A stretch of DNA of 64,000 nt from Planctomycetota bacterium (GTDB lineage: Bacteria > Planctomycetota > Phycisphaerae > Sedimentisphaerales > Anaerohalosphaeraceae): NCBI GenBank assembly GCA_029552545.1, contig JAKPDO010000028.1, positions 1 through 64,000 on the forward strand, written 5' to 3'. The position numbers and the translations under genes were made by a program. Shown here in pieces: positions 14,486 to 23,998 of the stretch (position 1 is its first letter; each line of letters starts with the position of its first letter). The notes beneath the pieces were generated by a model, which saw only the letters and a program-made list of their open reading frames with translations, did no database searches and was not told the origin of the DNA.

Positions 14486-15535
14486 TTAATTTCTCGCGTA
14501 CTGGATGAGAGCGGAGGCGATTTTGTCGAGCGGCAAAACAACCTCGGCGGCATCCAGTTTGATGGCCTCTTTGGGCATCCCAAAGACGATGCAGGTGGCT
14601 TCATCCTGGGCGATGGTGTGGGCGCCGGCCTGTCTCATGGCCAGCAGTCCCTTGGCGCCGTCGTTGCCCATGCCGGTAAGAATAGCGCCGACGGCGTTGG
14701 GTCCGGCGTATTTTGCGACGGAGTTGAAAAGGACTTCAACGCTGGGTTTCTGATGACAGACGGCCGGACCGTCTTTGATGGAGACATAGTAATTGGCGCC
14801 GGAACGCTGCAAGACCATATGGTAGCCGCCGGGAGCAATAAGCACTCTGCCGGGGATGACGGAGTCTCCGTCGACGGCCTCTTTGACCTGGACTTTGCAT
14901 TCGTTGTTAAGCCGTTCCGCAAACGAATGGGTAAATTGGGCTGGCATGTGCTGAACGACGACGGTTCCCGGACAGTCCGGCGGCAGGGCGGACAGGACAC
15001 AGGTGAGGGCCTGAACGCCGCCGGTGGATGCACCGATGGCCAGGATTTTGTTTGTGGTCTCGAGCATCGAGGCGGATTCGAGGGGCTTGATCGGCTCGCT
15101 CTGTGTCGCGACGGGTTTGGGATAACGGCCTTTGGGAATGGCCAGAATGGTTTCGCAAAGCTGTTTGCAGGCATCTCCTACGGAGTAGGAAGGACCGGGC
15201 TTGGCCAGCACTTCGACAGCCCCGGAGGCGAGGGCTTCGATGGCGGTTTTGCTGCCCTGGGGGGTCAGCGAGCTGAAGATAATAACCGGCATTGGATGAT
15301 ACTTCATCAGTTTTTTGAGGAATGTAACGCCGTCCATTCGGGGCATTTCGACGTCCAGAATCAGCACATCAGGGTTGAGCTGGACGATTTTGTCCCGGGC
15401 GATGTAGGGGTCCGGGGCGGTGGCAATAACCTCAATGGACGGGTGGGCTCCGAGCTGGGTACTGAGGATTTTTCGGACGATGGCGGAATCGTCAACAATC
15501 AGGACTTTGGTTGTTTCGAGTGCCGCAGAAGACAT
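14486..15535 (-). CDS. cheB: Chemotaxis protein-glutamate methylesterase/glutamine deamidase CheB
   Basis: This 349-residue protein has a receiver domain (phospho-acceptor D61 in ILDVEMPRMDG) and a C-terminal methylesterase domain with the catalytic triad S170 (GASTGG), H196 (QHMP) and D292 (GMGNDGA). It removes methyl groups from chemoreceptor glutamates, and CheA-dependent phosphorylation activates it. It is the last gene of the che operon, 11 bp after cheD, with AAGGAAT before ATG 15535. Confidence 0.97.
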   Translation of the reverse strand: MSSAALETTKVLIVDDSAIVRKILSTQLGAHPSIEVIATAPDPYIARDKIVQLNPDVLILDVEMPRMDGVTFLKKLMKYHPMPVIIFSSLTPQGSKTAIEALASGAVEVLAKPGPSYSVGDACKQLCETILAIPKGRYPKPVATQSEPIKPLESASMLETTNKILAIGASTGGVQALTCVLSALPPDCPGTVVVQHMPAQFTHSFAERLNNECKVQVKEAVDGDSVIPGRVLIAPGGYHMVLQRSGANYYVSIKDGPAVCHQKPSVEVLFNSVAKYAGPNAVGAILTGMGNDGAKGLLAMRQAGAHTIAQDEATCIVFGMPKEAIKLDAAEVVLPLDKIASALIQYARN

Positions 15536-15546
15536 GGGCGATTCCT

Positions 15547-16041
15547 TTAAAGATTTTTTTCAATTCCGCCGCTTTTGACTACGACGGTACCGTCATTCAT
15601 ATACAAATAGAGATTGCGGGGCTGATCGCCGCCGACATCGTGTCCTTTGAGCAGAAGGCCGTATTTCCAGAGGACCTTTCGGAGGGCCAGGAAGTTTCGT
15701 TTGCCGATGTCAAACCCCTGAGGACCGGTTTTCATAGCGGCGCCGCCGGCGGCTTTGACGATGATTCGATATTTGTCCGCACCGAGCTGCTGGAGATTGG
15801 CCATGAGGACATCCATTCCGGTGTCGCAAAACAAGAAGGGCTCCGCTTCGGCGCGTTGCGGGTCCATGGCGGATTCCGGCAGCTGGTAATGAATCATTCC
15901 GCCGATGGTTAGGGCGGGGTCGTAAAGAGCAACGGCTATACAGGAACCGAGCGAATAAGTAACCAGAACCGAATCCGGGTCCGTTGAAATCCGGGCGTCG
16001 GAAACCTGTACCACGATGTTTTTTTTCACGGCGGTGAGCAT
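15547..16041 (-). CDS. cheD: Chemoreceptor glutamine deamidase CheD
   Basis: This 164-residue protein matches CheD, which deamidates receptor glutamines and in some bacteria is sequestered by CheC to tune adaptation. The catalytic residues show with the family spacing: T28, C34 (SLGSCIAV) and H51 (MIHYQLP). It lies between cheR and cheB, so adaptation enzymes are grouped R-D-B. Presence of CheD goes with the CheX and CheC-like genes in the same operon. ATG 16041 follows AGGAAAT and lies 2 bp after cheR ends. Confidence 0.96.
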   Translation of the reverse strand: MLTAVKKNIVVQVSDARISTDPDSVLVTYSLGSCIAVALYDPALTIGGMIHYQLPESAMDPQRAEAEPFLFCDTGMDVLMANLQQLGADKYRIIVKAAGGAAMKTGPQGFDIGKRNFLALRKVLWKYGLLLKGHDVGGDQPRNLYLYMNDGTVVVKSGGIEKNL

Positions 16042-16907: not shown

Positions 16908-18986
16908 TCACAGATTTGCATCGGGGCCCTGGGCCAGTTCGAGGAGCCCCGGTACATCGAGAATCAAGCTGATTTGGCCGTCGCCCATAATGGCGCCGCC
17001 GGAAACCCCTTTAATTTTGCCTAATCCGCGAAGGGATTTAATAACGACCTGCTGCTGGCCGAGCAGGTCATCCACCTGCAGACAGCATCGCCGGCTTCCT
17101 TCTCCGACAACCACCAGAAGGGCCTGTTCGGGCTCTTCCACCGCACCGGAAATGCGGAAGAGCTTGTAGAGCGGAATGAGCGGGTGAAGCTGTCCGCGAA
17201 TCATCACGACTTTCGAGCGGTTTCGAATCGTGGAAATCTGGTCCGGCGTCGGACGCAGACTCTGAATGACCGAATTGATGGGGATGATATACCGCTGGGA
17301 ACCGATGGTGACAATTTGTCCGTCGATAATGGCCAGCGTCAAAGGCAGCCGGAGCATAAAGAGAGTTCCTTTGTCCGGCGCTGTTTTCATTTCGATTTTT
17401 CCGTTGAGGGCGTCGATATTTTTCTTGACGACATCCATTCCAACGCCTCGACCGGAGATTTCGGTGACCTTGTCGGCGGTGGAAAAACCGGGCTTGAAAA
17501 TCAGATTCAGCAGCTCTTCTTCCGTCAGCTCCTGATGTTCGGAAATCAGTCCTTTTTCGAGAGCTTTTTTGCGGATTTTTTCGGCGTTAAGACCGCGACC
17601 ATCATCCTCGATTTCGATAACAATGCTGCCGGCCTGATGGTAGGCCGACAGACGCAGCAGCCCCTGAGGGGATTTGCCTTTTTTGACGCGCTCCTCCGGC
17701 GGTTCGATGCCGTGGTCGATGGAGTTTCGAACCATATGAATCAGCGGGTCGGTAATCTTGTCCACGATGGTGCGGTCCAGTTCGGTTTCTTCCCCGGAGG
17801 TCTGGAAATTGATGGGTTTTCCGGCCTTTTGCGAAAGGTCACGAACAAGCCGAGCCATCTTCTGAAAGGCCCCCTGCATCGGAATCATCCGCATGGACAT
17901 CGACAACTCCTGCAAGTCGCGGACGATTTTGGACTGGCTGGCGACCTTTCGGTAGAGGTCGCTGTCGGTGTGGCAGGTTTTGCTGACCTCTTCGGAAATC
18001 ATCAGCTGAGCGACGGCCAGTTCCCCGGTCATATTGATCAGGTCATCCAGACGCTTGGTGCTGACTTTAATAGTTTCCCGTGCGGCGGAAGGGGCTGCAA
18101 CAGAGGAAACGGCGGTTTTGGCCTGGGATTCAGGCTGGAGAATAGGTTCGAGCTGGAGATCCTGCTGAACATCGGATGTGACAGGTGCAGGTTCCGGCTG
18201 AAGTCTGCCCTCAGCGCAGTCCTGAATTTTCTGAATCAGAGACGGTAGGTCTTTGGGTGCCGGGATGGGGGTATTTTGAGCCAGGCCGGCTTCGAGGTCC
18301 TTGAGCATGGTCTTGAGCATGTCGATGGAGCCGAAGGCCAGGTTGCTGGCGGCGCCGGACATTGTCAGAGTGCCTTTGCGGGCGCGGTCAAGCAGATTTT
18401 CGGATACATGAGCCAGCCGATTGATGGCGGTCAGATTCAGGAAGCCGGCCATACCTTTGATGGTATGGAAGCCGCGAAAAATCTGGTTCAGTGTTTCAGT
18501 ATTGGTCGGGTCATTTTCGAGACTCAAAAGGGCTGTTTCCGCCGATTCGAGATGTTCGCGGGATTCGTTGAGGAAATCCTGAACAAGCGGGGCATCATCA
18601 GGGGCGATGACGGTCGGCGGGAAATCCGATGTTTCCGCCGGAGCAGCCGGGGGTGTCGGGGCGGGTGCAGCACCGGATGCAGAGGAGAGGGACTGGGTAA
18701 GCGTCTGCAGCTGACTGACGGCCTTTGTGAGCTCCTGAAGCACTTGTTCGGAGGACTGGAGTTCCTGTCGAAGGAGTTTTTCAATCTGTTCGGCTCCCAA
18801 ATGAGCCAGGGATTGGGCCTGGAGACGGGAGGATTCCTCACAGCCGCTGAGGGTTTTGACGGCCTCTTCAATTTGTTTGAAAACGCCGGCGATTTCCTCG
18901 ATGTCGCGGGTATCCTGCGGGTCCAGCAGGGGAATTTTTCCGGCGGCCTGTTCAATCAGTTCCGTGATTTTTCCTGTCTTTTCCAT
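16908..18986 (-). CDS. cheA: Chemotaxis sensor histidine kinase CheA
   Basis: This 692-residue kinase has its phosphorylated histidine at H174 in FHTIKGMAGFL (HPt domain about 135-245). The dimerisation domain begins near KVSTKRLDDLINMTGELAV (about 307), the ATPase has the N box VRNSIDHGIE and G boxes EDDGRGLN and GRGVGMDVV, and a CheW-like domain ends the protein. A polar helical extension of about 105 residues plus an Ala/Pro linker precedes the HPt domain. The gap between HPt and dimerisation domain is only about 55 residues, so a classical P2 (CheY/CheB docking) domain seems absent. It phosphorylates CheY and CheB. Confidence 0.97.
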   Translation of the reverse strand: MEKTGKITELIEQAAGKIPLLDPQDTRDIEEIAGVFKQIEEAVKTLSGCEESSRLQAQSLAHLGAEQIEKLLRQELQSSEQVLQELTKAVSQLQTLTQSLSSASGAAPAPTPPAAPAETSDFPPTVIAPDDAPLVQDFLNESREHLESAETALLSLENDPTNTETLNQIFRGFHTIKGMAGFLNLTAINRLAHVSENLLDRARKGTLTMSGAASNLAFGSIDMLKTMLKDLEAGLAQNTPIPAPKDLPSLIQKIQDCAEGRLQPEPAPVTSDVQQDLQLEPILQPESQAKTAVSSVAAPSAARETIKVSTKRLDDLINMTGELAVAQLMISEEVSKTCHTDSDLYRKVASQSKIVRDLQELSMSMRMIPMQGAFQKMARLVRDLSQKAGKPINFQTSGEETELDRTIVDKITDPLIHMVRNSIDHGIEPPEERVKKGKSPQGLLRLSAYHQAGSIVIEIEDDGRGLNAEKIRKKALEKGLISEHQELTEEELLNLIFKPGFSTADKVTEISGRGVGMDVVKKNIDALNGKIEMKTAPDKGTLFMLRLPLTLAIIDGQIVTIGSQRYIIPINSVIQSLRPTPDQISTIRNRSKVVMIRGQLHPLIPLYKLFRISGAVEEPEQALLVVVGEGSRRCCLQVDDLLGQQQVVIKSLRGLGKIKGVSGGAIMGDGQISLILDVPGLLELAQGPDANL

Positions 18987-18992
18987 AAGGGT

Positions 18993-20324
18993 TTACTCGT
19001 TTTTTGTGCATTCCTTTTTTATTTCCGGCTGACCGGCAGGCGAACCGCCGGACAGCGTTTTGAGCAGTGTTTGAAAGATTTCCGTGACGGTAACCAGCCC
19101 TGTCACCGTGCCGTTGGTGTCCTGAATAGGGACGGCGCGGATTTGATGACGGCACATGATTTCCATGACTTTCCACATCGGCGTATCCGGCGAAGCCGTA
19201 TGGACGGGCTTGCTCATAAACCATCGGATGCGAATCTGCAAAGAGGCCTCATCCAGCGGGCGTCGGTATTCTTCGAACGGAGAACGCAGATAGGGGCTGA
19301 GGGCCGCATTGACATCTCCCCGAGAGAGAATGCCCGCCAACTGGTCTTTTTCCTCCACCAAAGCATAGCGTGCATTATTCTGCTGCATCCGCTGAAGAGC
19401 GGTTTCCACCGAGTCATTGGGAGAAAGCCAGAGAGGTTTTGGGTTCATAAAAATGCGAGCCGGACAGTTCAGAACGGCTGCATCCAGCGGGGCGGAGGAA
19501 AAATCACCGTTCGGATTGGATTGAACCAGTTGCTGAATAGCATTCCAGACCGGATGCGATGCGGAGGATTGGGAACTTTCCGGGGAGGCCGACACGGCTG
19601 CGGCGGGTTCGGATGTCTGCGGTGATTGGCTTGCAGCCGGCTCGGGCTGGACCGGGGCTGTTTCGGAAACAGCCCCAGATTCCGACGGAGTTTGTGCGGG
19701 GGCTTCCGTCGGAGCCGGTTCCTCTTTGGGCGGCTCGAAGAGAGCGGCCGGAAAGACCGCAGCTCCATGGAAGGGCGGATAATCTCCGACGGTCATTTCC
19801 CAGACAATCAGCAGACAGGCTGTATCTTCCTTGAATCCGAATACCTCGGCGGGTTTGTCCCACGGATTGAGAATTTGGGTATTGGTCTGCAGGAGGTGTT
19901 GATGGCCGGGCAGCTGTTCCCGGAACATCCGGTCCCAGGCGCCGACGATGAGATTGCCGATTTCCTTGATGGTGTCGGAGAGTTTGAGAGCCTGCTCGAG
20001 GGTGCCCTGTTTGCATTGCTCCTTAATCTTGTCTGCCGGAAGCATCACAATCGTTCCGGACAGCAGAAAAAGGGCGTTTTTATCGAGGAGCAGGTCAAAT
20101 CGTCCGCTTAGGGAACCTTCGGCACGGACGGAGTACACAGCGGCGAATTTTGGAAAGAACGTTTTAAGCTTGTCAACGGTGCCTGGTACGGCCTGGCAGA
20201 GTGCGCAGCCGATGGAGATGCCGAGCATCCCGTCCATGTCTTCGCAAAAAGTCTGCATGGAAACGGTGCTGACCTGCGGCACGAGCGTTTCGAGAGGAAT
20301 GGTTTGGGCGGTTTGTTGCTCCAT
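18993..20324 (-). CDS. CheC/CheX-like phosphatase domain fused to tandem CBS domains
   Basis: This 443-residue protein has an N-terminal CheC/CheX-like domain (about 1-190). SDTIKEIGNLIVGAW carries the family's E-x2-N catalytic pair, so CheY-P phosphatase activity is possible. An Ala/Pro/Ser-rich linker of about 70 residues follows. The C-terminal part (about 285-430) has two CBS-like repeats: FMNPKPLWLSPNDSVETAL with the ILSRGDVNAAL end, and FMSKPVHTASPDTPMWKVM with the GLVTVTEIFQ end. CBS pairs usually bind adenine nucleotides. The fusion suggests energy-state input into CheY dephosphorylation. It sits between cheX and cheA, with an AAAGGA site before ATG 20324. Confidence 0.8.
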   Translation of the reverse strand: MEQQTAQTIPLETLVPQVSTVSMQTFCEDMDGMLGISIGCALCQAVPGTVDKLKTFFPKFAAVYSVRAEGSLSGRFDLLLDKNALFLLSGTIVMLPADKIKEQCKQGTLEQALKLSDTIKEIGNLIVGAWDRMFREQLPGHQHLLQTNTQILNPWDKPAEVFGFKEDTACLLIVWEMTVGDYPPFHGAAVFPAALFEPPKEEPAPTEAPAQTPSESGAVSETAPVQPEPAASQSPQTSEPAAAVSASPESSQSSASHPVWNAIQQLVQSNPNGDFSSAPLDAAVLNCPARIFMNPKPLWLSPNDSVETALQRMQQNNARYALVEEKDQLAGILSRGDVNAALSPYLRSPFEEYRRPLDEASLQIRIRWFMSKPVHTASPDTPMWKVMEIMCRHQIRAVPIQDTNGTVTGLVTVTEIFQTLLKTLSGGSPAGQPEIKKECTKNE

Positions 20325-20350: not shown

Positions 20351-20821
20351 TTATTCCGTTTTGCGGTAAGAAAACGTAAAATCTGCGTAGTATTCCTCAT
20401 TCAGGCAGACGGATACGGAAACTTTTTCCGTTCCGTCCGGCAGGGAACTGTTCAACTCCTTTCCTGTTACGACTGTGGGAATAGACACAGCGATGTCAGG
20501 GTATATGTCCTGAATGCGGCTTTTGATGCTTCCCATAACCATGTTGGCGACTTCTCCAACAGCATCGCAGACTTCTCGTTCGGAGATTTCTGCATCGGGA
20601 TCAAGGGCCAGCATGTTCCGTGCGATGGCCTGAGCGCAGGGCCAGGACAGTGAAATCCCCAGACATCCTTCGAGATTTCCTCGAAAGGTGATAGAGCCCA
20701 GCAGAGAATGGTCGGTCTGTTCGGCGGAGGCGGCGGGCTCAATTTCCATAAAAATCATCGTTTCAAAGACTTCTTTGGCGGCATCCAGAACGGTTTCGTG
20801 ATACGTTTTCTGTTCGATCAT
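20351..20821 (-). CDS. cheX: CheX-type chemotaxis phosphatase
   Basis: This 156-residue protein resembles CheX, a phosphatase that removes phosphate from CheY. The catalytic motif is in VCDAVGEVANMVMGS (E and N three residues apart), and GSITFRGNLEGCLGISLS is the first part of the fold. It lies directly after cheY and before the CheC-like/CBS fusion, so the operon carries two CheC-superfamily proteins and no CheZ. ATG 20821 has AAAGGA 8 nt upstream. Confidence 0.88.
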   Translation of the reverse strand: MIEQKTYHETVLDAAKEVFETMIFMEIEPAASAEQTDHSLLGSITFRGNLEGCLGISLSWPCAQAIARNMLALDPDAEISEREVCDAVGEVANMVMGSIKSRIQDIYPDIAVSIPTVVTGKELNSSLPDGTEKVSVSVCLNEEYYADFTFSYRKTE

Positions 20822-20856: not shown

Positions 20857-21231
20857 TTAACTCATAAACGGAGCCAGTTGTTCCTGAAATTTTTCAGGTG
20901 TAAAAGGTTTGGTAATGTAGCCGTTGGCGCCGCTGGCCAGGACACTGTTGATCAATTCCTGAGAGCTTTCGGTGGAGACCATAATAATCTTGGTGTTCTG
21001 GCAGTTCGGCAGCTGTCGGGCTTGTTTGACCATTTCCGTACCGGGCATTTCCGGCATGTTGATGTCGCACAGGACGATGTCCACCGGCGAGGCCTTCAGT
21101 TTTTCGATGGCCTCGGCGCCGTTGCCGGCTTCCTCCGTCCGGTCAAATTCGAGACCGGACATTCGGACGGTTCGCATAATGATTTTCCGCATCGTGGCTG
21201 AATCATCCACAATCATTAACGATTTTGGCAT
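20857..21231 (-). CDS. cheY: Chemotaxis response regulator CheY
   Basis: This is a stand-alone 124-residue receiver domain: acidic pair D9-D10 (IVDDS), phospho-acceptor D56 (LCDINMPEM), and the switch lysine in YITKPF. It carries the signal from CheA to the flagellar motor. The gene follows the chemoreceptor by 15 bp and has a strong AAGGAG before ATG 21231. Confidence 0.96.
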   Translation of the reverse strand: MPKSLMIVDDSATMRKIIMRTVRMSGLEFDRTEEAGNGAEAIEKLKASPVDIVLCDINMPEMPGTEMVKQARQLPNCQNTKIIMVSTESSQELINSVLASGANGYITKPFTPEKFQEQLAPFMS

Positions 21232-21246
21232 GGATAGACTCCTTAT

Positions 21247-23397
21247 TTATTGTTCATTGAACGCCTGGAACTCCTGATCATCGAGGGGGATTGCTTTGGC
21301 CCCGGTTTTTCGCTGCGGCTGCTTTTGCGAGGGGCTGGGAGAGCCCTCGGCAATCTGGTGAAAAATCTGATTGGACAAGGTCGGCTGTTCAGCCGCTGCG
21401 TTTTTGTTTGATTTTCTGGTTTTGGATGAAGAAGAATGTCCTCCGCGGATGAGGGTCTGGAGCTGGGCTACTGTGTGCTTCATCGATTCGGCCTGAGAAG
21501 CCAGTTCCTCGGCGGCACTGGCAGACTCTTCGGCTCCGGCGGCATTCTGCTGGGTGACTTTGTCCATCTGGGAAACCGCCGAGTTAATCTGTTCGATGCC
21601 CTGGGCCTGTTCTTTGCAGGCGGCGGCAATTTCATTGACCAGAGCGGATGTCTTCCCGATGCCGCTGACGATTTGGTCAAGTGCGGTTTTGACTTCGTTG
21701 GAGATTTGAACGCCGTTTTTGGCATTTTTAACGGACTGTTCAATCAGTTCGGTGGTTTTTTCCGCCGCTTCGGATGAACGAATTGCCAGATTCCGCACCT
21801 CTTCGGCAACAACGGCAAAGCCCTTTCCGGCTTCACCGGCCCGTGCAGCTTCCACGGCCGCATTCAGCGCCAGCAGATTGGTCTGGAAGGCGATTTCATC
21901 GATGACCTTAATAATCTTAGCTGTTTCATCAGAACTCTTCTGGATTTCCTCAATGGCATGCAGCATTTTCTGCATGGCCTGAGTGCCGGTGTCGGCGGCC
22001 TGCTGGGCACCGGAGGCCAGAGTGGCGGCCTGAGCGGCATTGTCGGCATTCTGCTTGGTCATCGAGGCCATTTCTTCGAGCGACGAAGATGTTTCCTCCA
22101 GACCGGCGGCCTGTTCGGTTGTGCCTTGGGCGAGGGTCTGCGAAGCCGAAGCTACCTGGCCGGAGGCGTCGGAAACCTGCTCAGCTCCGGTGAGAATCTG
22201 CTCTGCAACGGCCGTGAGCCGATTGGTGAGTTTATGCGAAACAAAGAACCAGATAACCAGAGACACCAGCGAAGCAGCGGCTGCCAGAATGCTGATTTGA
22301 ATCATGGAAGCACGGCCGATCGAACGGAGACGGGCGCTGGATTCATAAAACTCATCCAGATAAGAACTGACGCCGATGACCCAGTCCCAGGGCTGGAAAT
22401 ACACGACCCGGGCGATTTTTTCCCTCGGGACGGATTCGCCCTGATTCTGCCAGGGGTATTTCTGTTCAGTGATTTCACCAGGTTTGGAGGCGAGGGCTTT
22501 TTTGCAGATTTCCTGGATGAAGGAAACGCCGTTGGCATCCTTGGCTTCCCAGATGCACTCTCCGTCTCTCTTGCCGTCTTTGGAGATTACGTAGTTGCCC
22601 TTGGAGTCGAGCACGAAGACATAGCCGGTCTTTCCGACGACGGTTTTCAGGATGGCCTGACGGATATTGGTGCAGCGTTCCTGCGGAATCCCGACATACA
22701 GGGCCCCAATCACCTTTTTCTGAGCGTCGAAAATCGGCTCATAGGCGGTGATATACCAGCGGTCCACTACAAAGGCCCTGCCTTCGTACCGCTGGCCCTG
22801 AAGAATTGCGGAGACGACCGGATTGGGGGTTCCGTCCGGCTGAGTTTTGGGGATGAAGGTGCCGATGGCGCGGGTGCCGTCTTTCTTCTCGACATTGGTG
22901 CAGACCCGCAGCATGTCTCCCTGCTCATTCATCCGCTGGAAGATGGTGCAGGTAACACCCATAAGGTCTTTGACCTTATCCACGATTGGAGAGGGGACCT
23001 GCCGGCTGGTATTCTGACCCAGCCAGGTGTCACCGACCATCATTTTGGGCAGGGTCACGGTCTGGCTGCTCTGGCTGAACTGGTTAACGGCCTGCCAGGT
23101 GACGGAGGATTCATCCAGCCGTACAGCACCTGTCTGATTGAAAATGTCCCGGGCAACCCGCAGGGACTGGTTGATATTTTCCTGAATGGACAGCTGCTCG
23201 ACCTGAAGCATGTTGTAAATGTGCTGGGCGATATGGTCGAGGTCGGTATAGGCCATTTTTGTGCTTTCCTCTTCGGCTGCACTTGCCATTTGTCGATTTT
23301 GGATGGTAACCATTGCCAGAATCACCAGCAGAGGCACGAGCGTCAAAATCAGGCCGTACATAAGTAATTTTGTTTTTAAAGCCATTTTGTTCAGCAT
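21247..23397 (-). CDS. Methyl-accepting chemotaxis protein with periplasmic Cache-type sensor
   Basis: This 716-residue receptor has a first membrane segment (about residues 8-30), a large periplasmic region (about 35-340) with Cache-like features ([18 protein letters not shown]; then [20 protein letters not shown]), a second membrane segment (about 350-370) and a cytoplasmic MCP domain with the highly conserved hairpin tip [21 protein letters not shown] complete HAMP domain is not obvious between TM2 and the signalling domain. I start at ATG 23397 rather than 23403, because the AAGGAG site ends right at 23403 and needs the later ATG for normal spacing. Its ligand is unknown. Confidence 0.95.
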
Positions 23398-23482
23398 ACT
23401 CATCTCCTTTTGAAATTTCCGGAGCTGGACTGCAATGCTGTCTGAACTCCTCTTTCCTTTTTCTTACTTAATGTTGAATCTG

Positions 23483-23998
23483 TTAATCCGCCGCGGTTGC
23501 CGCTGCTGCTTCATTCAGATGGACTCCGCCGAGGACCTGATCGATGTCCAGCAGAATCTTGATGGACGAGCCGACCTTGCCGATGCCGAGAATGAAATCC
23601 GTCTGGACGGCTGAGCCCAGATGCGAGGACTCTTCAATATCTTCGGCGGCGATGTCGAGCACTTCCTGGACGCGGTCCACAATCAGACCGGCGTTGAAGG
23701 TTTTGCCGTTCTGGTTGATTTCCGCCACGATAATGCAGGTTTGGTCGGTGACTTCAGCGGCTTCCATCCCGAACCGCAGACGCAGGTCAATCACCGGAAT
23801 GACCTGTCCTCGCAGGTTGATAACGCCTTTGACGAATTCCGGTGTGCGCGGGACGGCGGCGATGTTCATATAGCCGATGATTTCCCGCACTTTCAGGATT
23901 TCCAGCCCATACTCTTCTTTCCCCAGAGCAAAGGTCAGGTACTTGCCCTCCTGGGCACTGTTTTTTCTTGCAGTTGTTTCCTGTACGGCCGTTGCCAT
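23483..23998 (-). CDS. cheW: Chemotaxis coupling protein CheW
   Basis: This 171-residue CheW links the receptor to CheA. KYLTFALGKEEYGLEILKVREI starts the domain (split KYLTFALGKEE / YGLEILKVREI), and VPRTPEFVKGVINLRGQVIPVIDLR (split VPRTPEFVKG / VINLRGQVIPVIDLR) is the conserved core. It is the first gene of the nine-gene che operon and starts at ATG 23998 behind AGGAG. The gap to the receptor gene is 85 bp. Confidence 0.96.
   Translation of the reverse strand: MATAVQETTARKNSAQEGKYLTFALGKEEYGLEILKVREIIGYMNIAAVPRTPEFVKGVINLRGQVIPVIDLRLRFGMEAAEVTDQTCIIVAEINQNGKTFNAGLIVDRVQEVLDIAAEDIEESSHLGSAVQTDFILGIGKVGSSIKILLDIDQVLGGVHLNEAAAATAAD

Follow-up and report, generated by a model that had tools for sequence, protein, structure and literature searches.

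A CheC-type domain joined to a CBS pair in a planctomycete chemotaxis operon and its possible role as a nucleotide-modulated CheY-P phosphatase

Sequence comparison and structural modelling of a gene from the chemotaxis operon of a planctomycete revealed a protein in which a domain of the CheC/FliY/FliM fold (N-domain), with a single E-x2-N phosphatase motif, is followed by a pair of CBS repeats. The fusion occurs throughout one order of Phycisphaerae, in most cases next to cheX. The joining of these two domains in a che operon suggests that steering may be tied to the energy state of the cell. With roughly even confidence, we propose for the protein the role of a CheC-type auxiliary phosphatase, acting on phosphorylated CheY (CheY-P) of its operon and modulated by an adenine nucleotide via the CBS pair.

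Domain organization of the fusion protein

The features of the window, i.e., of the whole analysed stretch of 64,000 nucleotides, are listed in Table 1 together with those of related loci. The earlier note gave the span of the fusion gene correctly and omitted its strand, which is the minus one.

Table 1. Coordinates of the fusion gene, its parts, its operon neighbours, and features at related loci (positions without a locus name are those of the window)
Feature	Position	Strand	Basis
cheW	23483-23998	-	Pfam
Chemoreceptor with Cache_3-Cache_2 domain	21247-23403	-	Pfam
cheY	20857-21231	-	PF00072, E 1.6e-26
cheX, ordinary, EVAN motif at residues 90-93	20351-20821	-	PF13690, E 1.6e-19
CheC-type/CBS fusion gene, 443 aa	18993-20324	-	ORF with ATG start; Pfam
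N-domain, residues 8-198, CheC/FliY/FliM fold	19731-20303	-	AF2, Foldseek, VIA-align; Pfam CheX in relatives
E-x2-N motif, E121-I-G-N124	19953-19964	-	Alignment A1; hhalign to neighbouring CheX
GHxH histidines, H141 and H143	19896-19904	-	
Variable linker, residues 199-284, first ~60 rich in Pro/Ala/Ser/Glu	19473-19730	-	dN/dS, length spread
CBS repeat 1, residues 290-343, with G331-x-x-S334-x-x-D337	19296-19457	-	Pfam, alignment, predicted fold
Inter-repeat segment, residues 344-365, unusually conserved	19230-19295	-	Bits per column
CBS repeat 2, residues 366-424, with T412-x-x-E415	19053-19229	-	Pfam, alignment, predicted fold
cheA	16908-18986	-	Hpt, H-kinase_dim, HATPase_c, CheW domains
cheD, possible partner of the CheC-type domain	15547-16041	-	PF03975, E 9.7e-25
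Hpt-like/CBS gene	L043:5109-5996	-	
Coiled-coil/CBS protein	L108:8438-11377	-	
Coiled-coil/CBS protein	L109:4271-7060	+	
Coiled-coil/CBS protein	L110:454-4989	+	
Coiled-coil/CBS protein	L111:6062-7453	-	
Coiled-coil/CBS protein	L080:4005-5396	-	
CBS-only protein	L052:6813-7922	-	
CBS-only protein	L082:6867-7766	+	

In searches of Pfam and NCBIfam with the window protein alone, CBS repeats were the sole matches of note, and neither the CheC nor the CheX Pfam model matched. Among 45 relatives, 22 are matched by the CheX model (best E 9.8e-6) and 10 by the CheC model (best E 0.022), and the only match of the N-domain family profile in PDB, a weak one, is Thermotoga maritima FliY (4hyn, E 0.0086). 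The same structure is the best Foldseek match of the AF2 model of the N-domain (pLDDT 96.1), with E of 5.3e-12 and TM of 0.75. In the VIA-align ranking, the model scored Z of 20.1 with FliM, 18.2 with FliY, 16.4 with CheC, and 12.4 with CheX; FliY, FliM, CheC, and CheX were the only proteins above Z 8 (Z 20 to 11), the next score being 4.3. A long helix, three strands, and two helices follow one another in the model, and then this whole series is repeated. Results of this modelling indicate that the N-domain is of the full pseudo-symmetric CheC/FliM type and not of the shorter CheX type. The family profiles and the fold exclude an N-terminal part unrelated to CheC and CheX. The protein is also not FliY, as it has no FliN (SpoA) domain (no PF01052 match in the window protein).

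The E-x2-N motif is found once in the window protein, other E..N matches being sporadic, and in the AF2 model its E121 and N124 are placed in the second half, on its long helix (residues 116-137). Alignment with hhalign pairs them with E90 and N93 of the neighbouring CheX (E 1.5e-4). CheC and FliY typically carry two E-x2-N motifs. Since a motif scan of the N-domain did not find the first-half E-x2-N of CheC, we class the protein as CheC-type and not as CheC. Beyond the E-x2-N helix lie two nearly invariant histidines (GHxH), preceded by a conserved W-D-R-x-F-R-E stretch. We know of no CheC or CheX feature that matches them, and they possibly form a partner surface or a metal site.

The N-domain and the CBS pair (residues 290-424) are separated by a linker of about 85 residues that is predicted to be disordered. 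The earlier note described it as a 70-residue Ala/Pro linker; a linker is indeed present, and its Pro/Ala/Ser/Glu-rich composition is limited to the first 60 or so residues. Among 45 relatives the length of the linker ranges from 42 to 200 aa, and by the same measure that of the window protein is 87.

CBS pairs regulate many proteins. Two stretches of the C-terminal part match PF00571 (E 1.1e-19, 70.9 bits at a cut-off of 24), and all matches of its AF2 model (pLDDT 95.5, built with 48 relatives) are CBS pairs, the closest being that of AcuB from Bacillus subtilis in complex with AMP and ADP (PDB 9s4v; Z 18.6, rmsd 1.6 A over 131 residues). The E value of 1e-19 and the fold match rule out a chance assignment, and the model indicates that this part is a true CBS pair (Bateman module). 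In AcuB, Asp52 and Asp122 hold the ribose of the nucleotide (PMC13121692); we equate D337 and E415 of the window protein with them by the [ST]-x-x-D motif, and not by superposition. The motif is S334/D337 in the first repeat, where Asp is present in 42 of 48 sequences. In the second repeat it is T412/E415, and here 35 of 48 sequences have Asp and nine have Glu; the genus of the window departs from this majority, its members having Glu or another residue. The repeats are joined by a 22-residue segment with the consensus PYLRPxFAKWRRPxDDATLQI, which is conserved at 3.36 bits per column compared with 2.6 in the repeats themselves. Thus, the Pfam CBS matches, family profiles, and AF2 folds bear out the earlier description of the protein as a CheC-superfamily domain with two CBS repeats, including the CBS nature of its C-terminal part as judged by structure.

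Genomic context and conservation

In the order of transcription, the operon comprises genes of CheW, the Cache chemoreceptor, CheY, CheX, the fusion protein, CheA, CheR, CheD, and CheB, as assigned with Pfam, and runs to position 14486, where cheB ends. The position directly upstream of cheA and beside a normal cheX, already pointed out in the earlier note, was confirmed: cheX lies 27 bp upstream of the fusion gene and cheA 7 bp downstream. One CheA and one CheX were detected in the genome, and thus the fusion gene sits in the sole cheA operon detected. No FliY was detected in the genome. FliM and FliN are encoded by separate genes on another contig, to which both PF01052 matches of the genome belong, and CheY-P thus has a flagellar switch as a target.

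Close relatives with a name are uncultured members of Phycisphaerae (Planctomycetota). In relatives fetched from the order, the N-domain is present at 46 loci, at 44 of which it shares an ORF with a CBS pair; at the two others the contig ends (L081) or the frame is interrupted (L068). This excludes an accident of assembly or annotation as the origin of the fusion. When the N-domain profile was run over 297 genomes of the class, no match was found outside the order. The gene order cheY-cheX-fusion-cheA is conserved among relatives: cheX is directly upstream at 41 loci, counting L055 and L059, where cheX is present and the called start of the ORF extends into it, and cheA is directly downstream at 26. 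A cheD gene was also found in relatives with enough flanking sequence.

Loss of the catalytic residues in homologues would speak against the phosphatase proposal of the earlier note. At all 41 cheX-linked loci both E121 and N124 are kept. Alignment A1 has Asn in 45 of 45 sequences and Glu in 43, the exceptions being L043 (Gln) and L048 (Asp), which are both among the five loci with no cheX upstream (one of these five, L047, is cut by the contig end); the association of Glu loss with the missing cheX link gives a Fisher p of 0.0097. At L043, the usual place of cheA is taken by a gene for an Hpt-like domain fused to an ordinary CBS pair, in which NTIKG replaces HTIKG, i.e., the phospho-accepting His is changed to Asn. 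It is apparently a decayed CheA, beside an N-domain in which the motif Glu has become Gln.

In a comparison with a congener in L054, dN/dS was 0.065 in the N-domain and 0.056 in the CBS part, as opposed to 0.32 in the linker; these values indicate that the N-domain and the CBS part are each under purifying selection. The N-domain was found in 40 of 55 genomes with CheA and in 7 of 43 without it (98 related genomes; odds ratio 13.7), the p value of 2e-8 not being literal, as it ignores phylogeny and some of the genomes are incomplete. Correlations of pairwise distances between the che genes and both domains were high throughout, with no single partner standing out.

Relatives of the N-domain in other planctomycetes

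When 391 planctomycete genomes were searched with a profile, remote relatives of the N-domain also came up beyond the order, with 12-19% identity to the window protein. The motif Glu is the sole invariant column in them, and the Asn is present in 22 of 23. Certain of these domains are fused to a receiver domain (L092, L090, and L104), to a receiver-like region (L089, L093, L094, and L098), or to FliN (L100), and others stand alone. Of these assignments, Pfam confirmed the receiver of L092 and the FliN domain of L100, and it gave no family for L089; the receiver and receiver-like labels of the other remote relatives are our reading of the sequences. The gene of the N-domain directly follows cheY-cheX in L164, L167, L168, L169, and L173, and in L168, where the N-domain-REC protein was assigned by its match to CheY, it is followed by cheA. 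Across L164-L169 and L173, remote N-domains occur alone or with a receiver, a receiver-like region, or FliN, and most of them immediately follow cheY-cheX or cheY. Judging by these loci, the older order was apparently cheY-cheX followed by a gene of the CheC type, whose C-terminal module varies by lineage. As judged from the sequences, a slot for a CheC-type protein is conserved in Planctomycetota, its C-terminal module being interchangeable, and the occupants of this slot would make up a phylum-wide CheC-type family with exchangeable control modules that is largely missed by Pfam.

Proposed function and alternatives

From the features described above we infer a phosphatase activity, the kind of ligand, and a coupling between the domains. 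The one active E-x2-N site would be that of the second half, with E121 and N124 inserted at the active site of CheY-P, and the N-domain would hasten the loss of phosphate from CheY-P in parallel to CheX. The tethered CBS pair would most likely bind AMP, ADP, ATP, or Ap4A, and a bound nucleotide may alter the activity, the oligomeric state, or the partner binding of the N-domain. CheY-P lifetime would then track how energized or stressed the cell is, with consequences for motor bias or CheD-dependent adaptation. The modelled match to the FliY, CheC, and CheX folds, the retention of E-x2-N in cheX-linked loci and in remote relatives, and the conserved gene order with the co-occurrence of CheA are all consistent with a nucleotide-gated phosphatase, as are, by analogy, the AcuB-like CBS fold and the retained ribose-motif Asp of the first repeat (42 of 48). 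The lone E-x2-N, the CheX already encoded in the operon, and the absence of a CheC or CheX Pfam match for the window protein count against phosphatase activity. Points against nucleotide gating are the replacement of the second-repeat Asp in the genus and the presence of the same CBS subtype at the ends of non-catalytic coiled-coil proteins. A linker of this length and low conservation does not readily suggest tight allostery, and it favours dimerisation, avidity, or partner binding over rigid allostery.

We tentatively consider, a little short of even confidence, a more specific mechanism, in which adenylate charge or Ap4A directly sets the rate of the CheY-P phosphatase via the tethered Bateman domain. 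The output of the pathway, and not its receptors, would then read the energy state, and the fusion would be one version of the planctomycete CheC-type slot, in which the module (REC, receiver-like, FliN, or CBS) is exchanged by lineage. Where swimming is known to be linked to energy state, the link mostly lies at the receptors. If our reading is true, a ligand-gated CheY-P phosphatase would place metabolic control at the pathway output, so that every stimulus is affected at once. As the protein is conserved and standard assays exist for its two domains, the idea is directly testable.

The presence of cheD in the operon and in relatives allows a different reading, in which the main role of the N-domain is in receptor adaptation, where it would partner CheD in a CheY-P-dependent manner, the CBS pair tunes the binding, and phosphatase activity is minor because CheX handles the bulk of CheY-P. 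CheC of B. subtilis acts chiefly via CheD, and its binding of CheD outweighs its phosphatase activity, which is 6% of that of FliY (PMC3513319); the full CheC/FliM type of the predicted fold points in the same direction. A pure adaptor would not need the strictly retained E-x2-N of the linked loci, and on balance we find this reading less likely than the phosphatase one, albeit the main alternative to it; given cheD and the B. subtilis precedent, the energy-dependent removal of CheY-P proposed earlier is one of two live readings. A doubt of another kind concerns the CBS pair, which might be a constitutive dimerisation or docking module that senses no ligand and positions the phosphatase domain at the array or at a partner. 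Such a role would suit an inter-repeat segment that is more conserved than the repeats, the occurrence of the same subtype at the ends of very long coiled-coil proteins of the order, and the replaced second ribose-binding Asp in the genus of the window. The S/T-x-x-D of the first repeat is kept in most members, though, and the nearest fold is that of nucleotide-bound AcuB, so that we judge a purely structural CBS pair rather improbable.

We give very little credence to the view that the N-domain removes no phosphate and serves as a catalytically inert binder of CheY or of the motor switch, like FliM or CheC in kind. FliM middle domains do top the VIA-align ranking (Z 20.1), and the first-half E-x2-N of CheC is absent; against this, no feature is more conserved across the phylum than E-x2-N, and FliM and FliN have genes of their own in the genome. 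To our knowledge, FliM lacks E-x2-N, which also counts against a FliM-like binder.

Comparison with known systems

The N-domain resembles the middle domain of T. maritima FliY (4hyn) in its full pseudo-symmetric fold and E-x2-N chemistry, but the window protein has only one E-x2-N and a CBS pair instead of FliN, and lacking FliN it has no reason to sit in the motor. With CheC of T. maritima (1xkr) and B. subtilis it shares the fold and the location in a che operon with cheD, and it differs in the number of E-x2-N motifs (one, not two) and in the CBS fusion, at about 11% identity. CheX (the neighbouring gene product and T. maritima 1xko) is related through the motif region aligned by hhalign and the Pfam matches of relatives; unlike CheX, the N-domain is longer and has a FliM-like first half, and CheX is encoded by a separate adjoining gene. 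While AcuB of B. subtilis is the closest CBS fold, AcuB has an ACT domain and controls a deacetylase, and Glu takes the place of its second Asp in the window protein. The CBS pair of AcuB binds AMP, ADP, ATP, and Ap4A (PMC13121692, PMC13039410), and AcuB senses energy charge (PMC13121692) as well as Ap4A (PMC13039410). An incomplete literature search found no published description of a CheC/CheX-CBS fusion, our genome survey being one of Planctomycetota; the survey yielded 44 loci with both domains, all from one order of Phycisphaerae. In Leptospirae, CheC/CheX domains are fused to CheA (PMC10542144). There, too, a CheC/CheX domain is joined to another signalling module, but the partner is a kinase and not a ligand-sensing domain (PMC10542144).

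Other CBS proteins

In a phylum-wide sample, strong matches to the CBS subtype of the fusion protein (E <1e-55) are confined to the same family; the other genomes gave much weaker matches, as any CBS pair would. In the same order, this subtype also occurs on long proteins rich in Lys, Ala, and Glu (464-1512 aa) that are probably coiled-coil and have no catalytic domain. Three of them (L108, L110, and L111) bear an N-terminal CxxCGxxHWP motif, metal-binding in appearance. At L052 and L082, CBS-only proteins with a disordered N-terminus are encoded, and that of L052, which starts with MATSQTE like many of the fusion proteins, may be a copy that has lost its N-domain.
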